Assembly: GCA_021783235.1 (NCBI GenBank)
Contig: JAJXUD010000023.1
Coordinates: forward strand, 1 to 58,504
Direction of reading: 5' to 3'
DNA: 58,504 nucleotides
From: Myxococcales bacterium
Lineage (GTDB): Bacteria; Myxococcota; Myxococcia; Myxococcales; JAKAPL01
In this document: positions 16,214 through 27,838 of the stretch, in pieces
How the letters are laid out: each line of letters begins with the position of its first letter
How positions within the stretch are numbered: the first letter of the stretch is position 1
Translations under genes and position numbers: made by a program
Notes under the pieces: generated by a model
Told to the model about the DNA's origin: nothing
The model's input: only the letters and a program-made list of their open reading frames with translations
The model's database searches: none

Positions 16214-16600
16214 CTACTCCTTCGTCGGCTCCTCGGGGACCGGCGGGACCGGCGGCAGCGCCGCCCGCTTTCCCTCCGCGATGAGCTCGCGAACCTTCTG
16301 GCCGCCCTTGCGGCCGATCTCCTCGTAGAAGGGCGTGCCGCGCTCGGCCTTGACGGCCTCGCCGCCCTTCTTGCCGATCTGCTCGTAGAACGCCGTGCCG
16401 CGCTCGGCCTTGACCCGATCGCCGCCCTTCTTGCCGATCTGCTCGTAGAACGCCGAGCCGCGCTCGGCCTTGACGGTCTCGCCGCCCTTCTTGCCGATCT
16501 CCTCGTAGAACTCGCGGCCACGCGCGTTCCGGACCGTCTCGCCGCCTTTACGGCCGGCCTCGCTCACGGTCATCGTCCCCTTCTTCTTCTCCTCCGCCAT
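16214..16600 (-). CDS. KGG-repeat stress-response protein (GsiB-like)
   Basis: A small hydrophilic protein of 128 residues. The core is five units of exactly 20 residues, each with a KGG triplet (residues 18-20, 38-40, 58-60, 78-80, 98-100) and the pattern FYE(E/Q)IGKKGG. This is the KGG repeat of glucose-starvation and general-stress proteins such as B. subtilis GsiB, thought to be hydrophilin-like desiccation protectants. The C terminus is Pro-rich (PPVPPVPEEP). The start at 16600 is chosen because of a strong SD GGAGGAG (16606-16612 complement). A longer open frame upstream overlaps glnD and is not supported. It sits 148 bp downstream of glnD and may have its own promoter. Confidence 0.9.
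   Translation of the reverse strand: MAEEKKKGTMTVSEAGRKGGETVRNARGREFYEEIGKKGGETVKAERGSAFYEQIGKKGGDRVKAERGTAFYEQIGKKGGEAVKAERGTPFYEEIGRKGGQKVRELIAEGKRAALPPVPPVPEEPTKE
16301..16555 (-). repeat. 60-bp imperfect tandem repeat coding the KGG units
   Basis: The DNA is periodic at 60 bp, matching the 20-residue KGG units. Copies two to four are nearly identical over phrases such as CCGCCCTTCTTGCCGATCT, while the outer copies diverge. This suggests recent internal duplication of the central units. Confidence 0.8.
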
Positions 16601-24012: not shown

Positions 24013-24720
24013 TCAGAACGCGAAGGCGAGGACCGGCGAGCTGACCGACGGAAGCTCTCGCACGGCGCGAACCGCGGCGCCCGAGGCCTCGGCCACCGGC
24101 TCGTAGTAGGGGGGCGGCGGGGGCGGCGGCGCCCAGAAGCGGCGAAAGAGCGGGCGGCGGCGCCACTTGGTGCCGTTCTGGACCGCCACCGTGACGGCCG
24201 CGCCGACCAGCGCCGCCACGATGCCGCCGAGCACGAGCGCCCCCAGCGAGCCCGCGCCCGCGACGAAGATCCCCCAGAAGAGGACTCCCCCGAGGAGGCT
24301 CCCGCCGTAGGCGCCGAGCAGGGTCCAGCCCAAGCGGGGCGCGAACCAGTCGGAGAAGGAGCCGATGCCCCAGACGATCAGGGCGTCCGCGATCGGCGCG
24401 AGCAGCACGAGCGCGACCGCGCCGCCCGGGTCCACGAAGTAGGCGTCCCAGGCGAGCGTCTCGACCCCGAGCCGCCAGAGGGTGTCGACGACGAATTCGA
24501 TGGCCGACAGCCCGGGCTCGGCGCGGCCGACGATGACGTAGGCGCCGCCGCCCTGCCCGTCCCCCGCGAAGTCGAGGGCCGGGCTCGGCGCGTGGCTCCA
24601 GCGAAGGCTCGGCGGCGTGAGCTCGAGATCTGGGGCCGAAGCGGCGGCGAAGGCGGCGCCGGAGAGGCCGAGCGCGGCGGCGAGGGCCACTCCAGCGGAG
24701 AGCGATCGAACGGTCGACAT
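24013..24720 (-). CDS. Exported or membrane protein of unknown function
   Basis: A 235-residue protein with an N-terminal signal sequence (SLSAGVALAAALGLSGAAFA), a short exported segment, then about four hydrophobic helices in the middle (IADALIVWGIGSFSDW, LLGAYGGSLLGGVLFWGIFVAGAG, LGALVLGGIVAALVGAAVTVA). A Pro-rich tail has PPPPPPPYYEP. I recognise no family. The start is the ATG at 24720 with a perfect AGGAGG (24727-24732 complement). The same frame stays open upstream through the whole 21-bp array to 25371, so an N-terminally extended form is formally possible but unlikely given the SD and signal peptide. It precedes the zinc-ribbon gene by 20 bp. Confidence 0.7.
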   Translation of the reverse strand: MSTVRSLSAGVALAAALGLSGAAFAAASAPDLELTPPSLRWSHAPSPALDFAGDGQGGGAYVIVGRAEPGLSAIEFVVDTLWRLGVETLAWDAYFVDPGGAVALVLLAPIADALIVWGIGSFSDWFAPRLGWTLLGAYGGSLLGGVLFWGIFVAGAGSLGALVLGGIVAALVGAAVTVAVQNGTKWRRRPLFRRFWAPPPPPPPYYEPVAEASGAAVRAVRELPSVSSPVLAFAF

Positions 24721-25388
24721 GGGCAACCTCCTCGACCGATGGAGGATGGCTCGCCCACGGGGCCGCCGCAAGGGGGATCCATCACTCCGCTCCAAGGATC
24801 GGAAAGCGGCGGCCCTCGAAGGCGATCCCCGGTGTACGGGCCCCGCGAACGCGGTCACGGGCCTCGCGAACGCGGTCACGGGCCCCGCGAACGCGGTCAC
24901 CGGCCCCGCGAACGCGGTCACGGGCCCCGCGAACGCGGTCACGGGCCCCGCGAACGCGGTCACCGGCCCCGCGAACGCGGTCACGGGCCCCGCGAACGCG
25001 GTCACCGGCCTCGCGAACGCGGTCACAGGCCCCGCGAACGCGGTCACGGGCCCGGGGAACGCGGTCACGGGCCCCGCGAACGCGGTCACGGGCCCCGCGA
25101 ACGCGGTCACGGGCCCCGCGAACGCGGTCACGGGCCCCGCGAACGCGGTCTCGGGCCCCGCAAACGCGGTCACGGGCCCCGCGAAGGCGGTCACGGGCCC
25201 CGCGAAGGCGGTCACCGGCCCCGCGAACGCGGTCACGGGCCCCGCGAACGCGGTCACGGGCCCCGCGAACGCGGTCTCGGGCCCGGGGAAGGCGGTCTCG
25301 GGCGCCGCGAACGCGGTCTCGGGCCCGGGGAAGGCGGTCTCGGGCGCCGCGAACGCGGTCTCGGGCGCCACGGCCCACGCCGCGCCGC
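24721..25388. other. 668-bp gap between kinase stop and membrane-protein start, mostly tandem array
   Basis: The stretch holds the SD of the membrane-protein gene (24727-24732), about 100 bp without obvious features, and the 21-bp array. All six frames are largely open because the 21-bp unit has no stop. No separate gene is supported. Confidence 0.6.
24839..25363. repeat. 21-bp tandem repeat array, 25 copies
   Basis: Twenty-five head-to-tail units of 21 bp fill 525 bp. The core reads GCGAACGCGGTCAC joined by GGGCCCC. Each unit contains the palindrome GGGCCC and the dyad CGCGAACGCG. On the plus strand it would code the heptapeptide GPANAVT and on the minus strand GPVTAFA. Most copies are identical or differ by one base (GGCCTC in units 2 and 9; AAG for AAC in 17 and 18). 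The last four units alternate two variant types, giving a 42-bp higher-order repeat. There are no unique spacers, so it is not CRISPR. Confidence 0.95.
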
Positions 25389-26701
<1,313 letters not shown>

Positions 26702-26705
<4 letters not shown>

Positions 26706-27373
26706 TTGGGCATCCTCCCCTCGGCCTTCGCCTCGAGCGGCAGCTCGAGCGTCAGCCGCTGGTCCGCGCCGACCTCGGCGACGAAGGTGACCTTGCCCGC
26801 GTGCTGCTCGAGCAGCCCCCCGACGATCCGCATCGAGCTGTCGACGGTCGAGCCCGTGAAGCGGGCGAGGAGCGCCACGGCCTCCGCGGTGGTGAACGGC
26901 ATCCCCTGCCGGCGGGCCCGGACGACGAGCTTGCTCTCGCTCTGCACCGCCTCGGAGGCGACGGACGCCTCCGAGCCCTGGAACGGCCGCCAGAGCGCGG
27001 CCAAGAGCTCGCGCTGCTCGAGGAGGCTCTTCAAGAGCGCCGCGAGCGCCGCGTCGTCCCACGGCTTCGTCAGGAAACGGCAGACCTCGCCTTCATTGAT
27101 CGAGCTCAAGACCGAGGCGAGGTCGGCGCAACCCGAGAGGATGAGCCGCAGCGCGAGGGGGCGGCGCCGGTGGACCTCCGCGAGCAGCTCGGCGCCGGTC
27201 ATGCCGGGCATCCGAAAGTCGGAGATGACGACGTCGGGCTCGAAGCGCTCGAGCAGCTCCAGCGCCTCGTGCGGCCCGAAGGCCAGCGCGGCATCGTAGC
27301 CCTCCCGCCGGAGGAGCCGGTAGAGCGCCTTCGCCACCATCGGCTCGTCGTCGACCAGCAGCACCTTGGCCAT
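26702..27373 (-). CDS. Response regulator with unusual C-terminal domain
   Basis: A 223-residue protein. Residues 1-115 are a complete receiver: VDDE at 7-10, phospho-acceptor Asp52 (SDFRMPG), and Lys103 in LTKPW. The LTKPWDD end is typical of RpfG/HD-GYP-associated receivers, but no HD-GYP follows. Residues 115-223 contain no recognised DNA-binding or enzymatic motif. The last 40 residues (IVGGLLEQHAGKVTF...LTLELPL) loosely resemble the end of a HATPase_c domain, without the G boxes. The start at 27373 has AGGAGG upstream. It overlaps the kinase gene and so forms a co-translated pair. Confidence 0.85.
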
Positions 27374-27838
27374 GGGATGCCTCCTGTCGGAGGGGAGACG
27401 CAATCCCGCTGCCAGCAGCCCGTTCAAGGATCACGGGTAGTTGTGGAGGCTTGCCCGGGGTCCCGGCGAACCCAGCTGGGTGCCGGCTCAGCCGCAGGGC
27501 GTTCGGCCCGAGCCGACCGAGGGCGGGAGAGCGCCCGTCCTCGGCCAGCTCGACGTCGAACCGCTCCGCGGCGAGGGCCCGCCCAACCCGCCGCCCAACC
27601 CGCCCCTCCGCGCCGCCACCCGCCCCGCCCCACCCGACCCGCCGCCCGACCCGCCCCTCCCCGCCCGCCCCGCCACCCATGATCCGCGCCATCCCTCGCC
27701 GCCCCACGGGCGATCGGGAAACGCAAGCCGCGGGCCATTCGGAATTCGGCCCGCTTCGCGCGAGCGGTGGGAAAAACCGAGCGCCGCGTGGGAAGGCGCT
27801 TGCCGGGCGAAGCGCCTTTGGACTACACGACCCGGGCC
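27374..27838. other. Divergent intergenic region with C-rich low-complexity block
   Basis: This 465-bp region separates the response regulator (minus) from hutU (plus). Next to the regulator start is its SD, AGGAGG. The middle carries a C-rich block at 27578-27679. The hutU-proximal end has a TTGCCG (27800-27805), an 18-bp spacer and TACACG (27824-27829) ending 9 nt before the hutU ATG. No gene is supported. Confidence 0.55.
27578..27679. repeat. C-rich/G-rich low-complexity tract with G-quadruplex potential
   Basis: About 100 bp composed of runs such as CCGCCCAACCCGCC, CCCGACCCGCC and CCCGCCCCTCC. The complementary strand therefore has many G3-G4 runs separated by 1-4 nt, the pattern expected to fold into G-quadruplexes. 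It lies between two divergent transcription units. Confidence 0.7.

Follow-up and report, generated by a model that had tools for sequence, protein, structure and literature searches.

Non-coding bacterial tandem repeats whose unit keeps a constant size (20–21 nt) while its sequence varies have been described by Subirana and Messeguer (2020, 2021), and their function is unexplained (PMC8161180). The authors note that the unit spans two helical turns of DNA and suggest a nucleoid protein or a small RNA, leaving the function open; several families are found per species, each species has characteristic short sequences, and strain variability in array presence and length is reported for a second class with a 52-nt unit (PMC8161180). 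Why unrelated non-coding arrays keep one unit length of two helical turns has been an open question since 2020–2021. Our literature searches turned up no report of such arrays in myxobacteria. REP/BIME and REPIN elements are repeats of another kind, with palindromic units that have a sequence common within the genome and are moved by RAYT.

Here we consider an array in an uncultured member of the Myxococcales (assembly GCA_021783235.1), located in a 58,504-nucleotide stretch of contig JAJXUD010000023.1 that was analysed as a whole and is called the window below. The features of the locus are:

24836..25360 (partial unit to 25366), no strand: 21-bp tandem array, 25 full units of ACGGGCCCCGCGAACGCGGTC (TRF and unit table)
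25277..25360, no strand: units 22–25 of the array, a 42-bp higher-order repeat (22=24, 23=25; unit table)
25172..25213, no strand: units 17–18 of the array, with one C-to-G variant in common (unit table)
25389..26705, minus strand: histidine kinase gene (HisKA + HATPase_c), which ends with a stop codon 22 bp from the array and has an approximate start (26705 by codon score)
24013..24720, minus strand: gene for a small secreted/membrane protein, with ATG at 24720 preceded by AGGAGG and a signal peptide recognized by inspection; its start lies 115 bp after the array
26702..27427, minus strand: response regulator gene upstream of the kinase

TRF delimits the array at 24836–25366 with a period of 21, 92% match, 0% indels, a score of 880 and 25.3 copies, a figure that may be inexact, as it derives from a single draft assembly (133 contigs). 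A 25-copy array is beyond the reach of chance. The 25 in-register units up to 25360 depart from ACGGGCCCCGCGAACGCGGTC by 25 substitutions, representing nine distinct changes, and contain no indels. The preliminary description had placed 25 copies at 24839–25363, which describes the same array with a shift of three bases, and its account of the internal structure is borne out by the unit table: units 22–25 form the alternating 42-bp block, units 17 and 18 share their variant, and GGGCCC and CGCG dyads are both present in each consensus unit. The kinase-side end (units 22–25) is the most diverged part of the array. Units two positions apart are more alike than under shuffled unit order (p 0.005), no other lag being above expectation, and this excess is probably due to the 42-bp block. 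The two dyads are limited to the sequence family of the window array itself. The copies stand head-to-tail, without the unique spacers that separate the repeats of a CRISPR array. Taking a unit of 20–21 nt (20–23) in at least four regular copies as the criterion of the 20–21 nt class, the window array is of class size, with 25 indel-free copies of 21 bp. It is also non-coding in character, occupying a spacer between two genes, with flanks that carry no coding signal and units without synonymous bias.

The minus-strand gene order is response regulator, histidine kinase, array, secreted membrane protein, zinc-ribbon protein and aminotransferase, and the array sits within a 668-bp spacer between the kinase and membrane-protein genes, outside both, as had been proposed from the letters alone. 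The membrane protein has no Pfam match outside the repeat and no NCBIfam match, and its homologues in two genomes of the same family are 47–48% identical. Elsewhere in the window, a low-complexity CCCGC-rich stretch with several overlapping periods lies between the response regulator and urocanase genes (27577–27678). The orthologous kinase/membrane-protein junction measures 82 bp in one relative (G002, locus L020) and 49 bp in the other (G001, L021), with no array in either, and an array upstream of tlyA in the genome under study is also absent from both. Because these junctions are empty in both relatives, array positions are lineage-specific at the two testable sites; site conservation was informative only there, since the neighbours of the arrays at L137, L151, L176 and C126 gave only paralogues or distant homologues. 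The sequence family of the window array recurs on contig C126 of the same genome (L009, 6004–6165), where an intergenic array has about three forward and then about five inverted 21-bp units. This array lies just past the stop codon of a gene resembling an FAD oxidoreductase, so that orientation switches within a single array. A further related array, of 14.6 copies, occurs in the related genus at G002:C150, at a non-orthologous site.

A census of arrays with at least 3.5 copies places the locus in a wider context. It sampled 1.47 Mb of the 4.58-Mb genome, mostly contig starts, which may over-represent arrays because assemblies break there, and genes were called with a home-made codon-score gene finder. 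The sample held 64 arrays, with a basic period of 21 in 31 and of 42 in eight. The period was a multiple of 21 (21n) in 36 of the 46 intergenic arrays, whose units are mostly unrelated; when six loci fetched for their array resemblance were left out (1.44 Mb), 30 of 40 remained. Some of the arrays scored as intergenic and not 21n are in fact missed genes. One such case lies in the window itself (16293–16546, minus strand), where a 60-bp repeat forms part of a short gene for a KGG-type general stress protein (EEIGKKGGETVKAERG repeats) that the gene finder overlooked; this protein family with 60-nt repeats is mentioned in PMC8161180. Within genes, the period was 21n in only 5 of 26 arrays (Fisher p 2e-6 against intergenic arrays, on the unbiased set). 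The sister genome G001 gave 11 of 14 intergenic arrays with period 21n, whereas four genomes from the order's other families had 2 such arrays among 10. Expressed as density, 21n arrays number 20.8 per Mb in the genome under study and 34.9 in G001, against 3.1 in the four other-family genomes, and 80 unrelated loci contained no 21-bp array. Extrapolation to the whole genome gives about 95 period-21n arrays.

The 47 class arrays fall into 21 loose sequence families, with mostly unrelated units and some relationship between families. A search for a motif common across families gave nothing convincing; sharing is weak, with CCGATC recurring in 4 of 21 families where 0.7 would be expected of this k-mer, a level below the random-set maximum. 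Indels are scarce (0% in 31 of the 47 arrays; an estimated ~1766 mismatch columns versus 106 indel columns). Dyad symmetry of the units shows a weak excess (arm 4.57 vs 3.88), a level that 3 of 300 random sets reached. Most 42-bp units consist of two 21-bp halves related to each other, several of them by inversion as well; in four 42-bp arrays of the genome under study (L151 9108, L152 14401, L171 1 and L176 7067) the inverted relationship between the halves is significant (p up to 0.006) and the arms, 7–10 bp long, are perfect. Gaps that carry arrays (13 tandem, 7 divergent, 4 convergent) resemble other gaps in gene orientation. The arrays lie nearer to stop codons than to start codons (medians 77 vs 145 bp, p 0.02). 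The census also returned an 85-bp repeat family built of four 21-bp subunits plus one base (L126 1–417, L133 587–1297, L139 5748–6331), which recurs, frequently at the ends of contigs, and is a probable cause of assembly breaks. Two coding arrays of cysteine-rich repeats, with identical TRF statistics and 2.6 kb apart (L121 3608–4564 and 6243–7199), are possibly a recent gene duplication.

We consider it likely that the window array belongs to the non-coding minisatellites with a 20–21 nt unit, constant in size but variable in sequence, and that a 21-bp segment was duplicated, grew by slippage or unequal exchange and was tolerated in spacers. The duplication would have been lineage-specific. 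Replication slippage or unequal exchange would then have extended and homogenized the array in whole steps of two helical turns, and the product would have been tolerated in spacers, more often near stop than start codons, presumably as neutral sequence. The constraint would fall on repeat length, the sequence being free. Growth by slippage or unequal exchange had already been suggested in the preliminary description, and it is supported by the exactness of the period, by the 42-bp block and by the empty orthologous junction in two relatives.

Neutral growth alone does not account for the fixed period of 21, and the data also fit an architectural role under selection. Under such a role the period would align all units along one helical face, and a putative nucleoid protein with little sequence specificity would polymerize on the arrays, organizing the chromosome or insulating neighbouring genes. 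A period that stays fixed while sequence is free across many families and two genera is consistent with this, as are the scarcity of indels in class arrays, the match of 21 bp to two helical turns pointed out in PMC8161180 and the greater distance of arrays from start codons than from stop codons. However, the units show no identity excess at lag 10, which would mark an internal half-unit repeat (10/11 bp), no clear 31- or 52-bp noncoding class was seen in the census, array families have no strong motif in common, the two testable sites are unconserved between genera, and the reading comes without a candidate protein. Selected architecture is somewhat improbable as an explanation, although a nucleoid protein that reads geometry is a serious alternative to a neutral satellite. 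It is quite unlikely that this bacterium's family keeps in each genome some 100 arrays, independent of sequence and with a phase of exactly two helical turns, as binding platforms for a putative protein of that kind.

A role confined to the neighbouring genes is doubtful to a greater degree. The array could influence the kinase gene or the membrane-protein gene in cis, as a cluster of binding sites, an RNA hairpin, a terminator or a spacer whose copy number tunes expression, and it does part two genes that are 49–82 bp apart in the relatives and may uncouple them. A 147-nt minus-strand stretch also folds better than its dinucleotide shuffles (z −5.1), but against arrays built from shuffled units the fold is ordinary (20th percentile). 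Fold-back of the RNA was rejected as a property of the class too, the mean percentile against unit shuffles being 0.49 over 29 families. Neither a terminator nor a promoter match was obtained (the sigma-70 search would miss high-GC promoters), Rfam gave no match, and genes flanking array-bearing gaps are oriented as they are elsewhere. The suggestions of a multi-copy specific binding site and of a spacer switch between the kinase and the downstream operon therefore appear unlikely, because arrays occupy lineage-specific positions with no preferred orientation; moreover, the window array is one of about 100 that are scattered through the genome with mostly different sequences. The array probably serves neither this kinase nor this membrane protein in particular.

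The proposal that one strand encodes a heptapeptide polymer (GPANAVT or GPVTAFA) started from the claim that no frame contains a stop, which is wrong, as the third minus-strand frame carries 19 TGA stops (in GTGACC) and five of six frames are open. Several open frames are unremarkable at this GC content, about half of random 21-bp units at 72% GC being open in all six. On this reading the plus frame (TGPANAV) would give the xxNxVxG repeat of the grass ice-recrystallization-inhibition beta-roll, while the minus frame (GPVTAFA) is in frame with the membrane-protein gene. The plus frame scores 96.8 bits against Pfam PF21300 (cut-off 30), the same query matches structure 3ult, and the codon scores within the array, 0.356 in the plus and 0.330 in the minus frame, are values that genes also show. 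However, that query matches the heptad tail of RNA polymerase II as well, so the ice-binding match is generic to heptads and looks like an artefact of the heptad repeat. In these two frames, codon scores next to the array are −0.07 and −0.41; on the minus strand an open frame continues from the array into the membrane gene, with negative scores between the array and the ATG. No frame shows an excess of synonymous changes (p 0.16–0.89). In the plus-frame register the related array of G002 reads RLASAVA/T, with the motif lost, and the C126 array of the same family flips orientation midway. The plus frame has no start signal, whereas the membrane gene has its own Shine-Dalgarno sequence, ATG and signal peptide; AlphaFold modelled the plus ORF at low confidence (pLDDT 56), and the same site in relatives is without an array. 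An ice-binding (LbR_Ice_bind) protein was accordingly rejected despite the xxNxVxG repeat, in view of the flank scores, the absent synonymous excess and the motif lost in related arrays. The array probably makes no protein, and a coding array is highly improbable. For the window array the point is mainly corrective, as annotation as a protein or as a kinase-specific switch is unwarranted.

Among known systems, the grass antifreeze beta roll (PF21300, LbR_Ice_bind) resembles the array in that plus-frame PANAVTG fits xxNxVxG above the score cut-off, but differs in that the array has no gene evidence, the motif is not kept in related arrays and the query matches other heptad repeats. REP/BIME and REPIN elements are likewise dispersed, intergenic and repeated. 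Membership there was rejected, since the units here, far from being palindromic and genome-wide, are head-to-tail, 21 bp long and mostly unrelated, with a weak dyad excess. The 52-nt Bacillus satellites of the same authors are also constant in size, variable in sequence and non-coding, whereas their unit is 52 nt, a period not seen here, and they occur in Firmicutes only. The bacterial family studied here (an estimated 20–35 arrays per Mb) offers a dense, GC-rich test case that separates size constraint from sequence constraint well. The closest likeness is to the 20–21 nt repeats of Subirana and Messeguer, with a non-coding unit of 21, several differing families per genome, lineage-specific positions and many copies without spacers. 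Here they occur in a high-GC (72%) uncultured bacterium of the myxobacterial order and not in Bacillus, the strong short motif corresponding to the species-characteristic sequences of that paper was not found, and periods other than exactly 21 or its multiples are rare.
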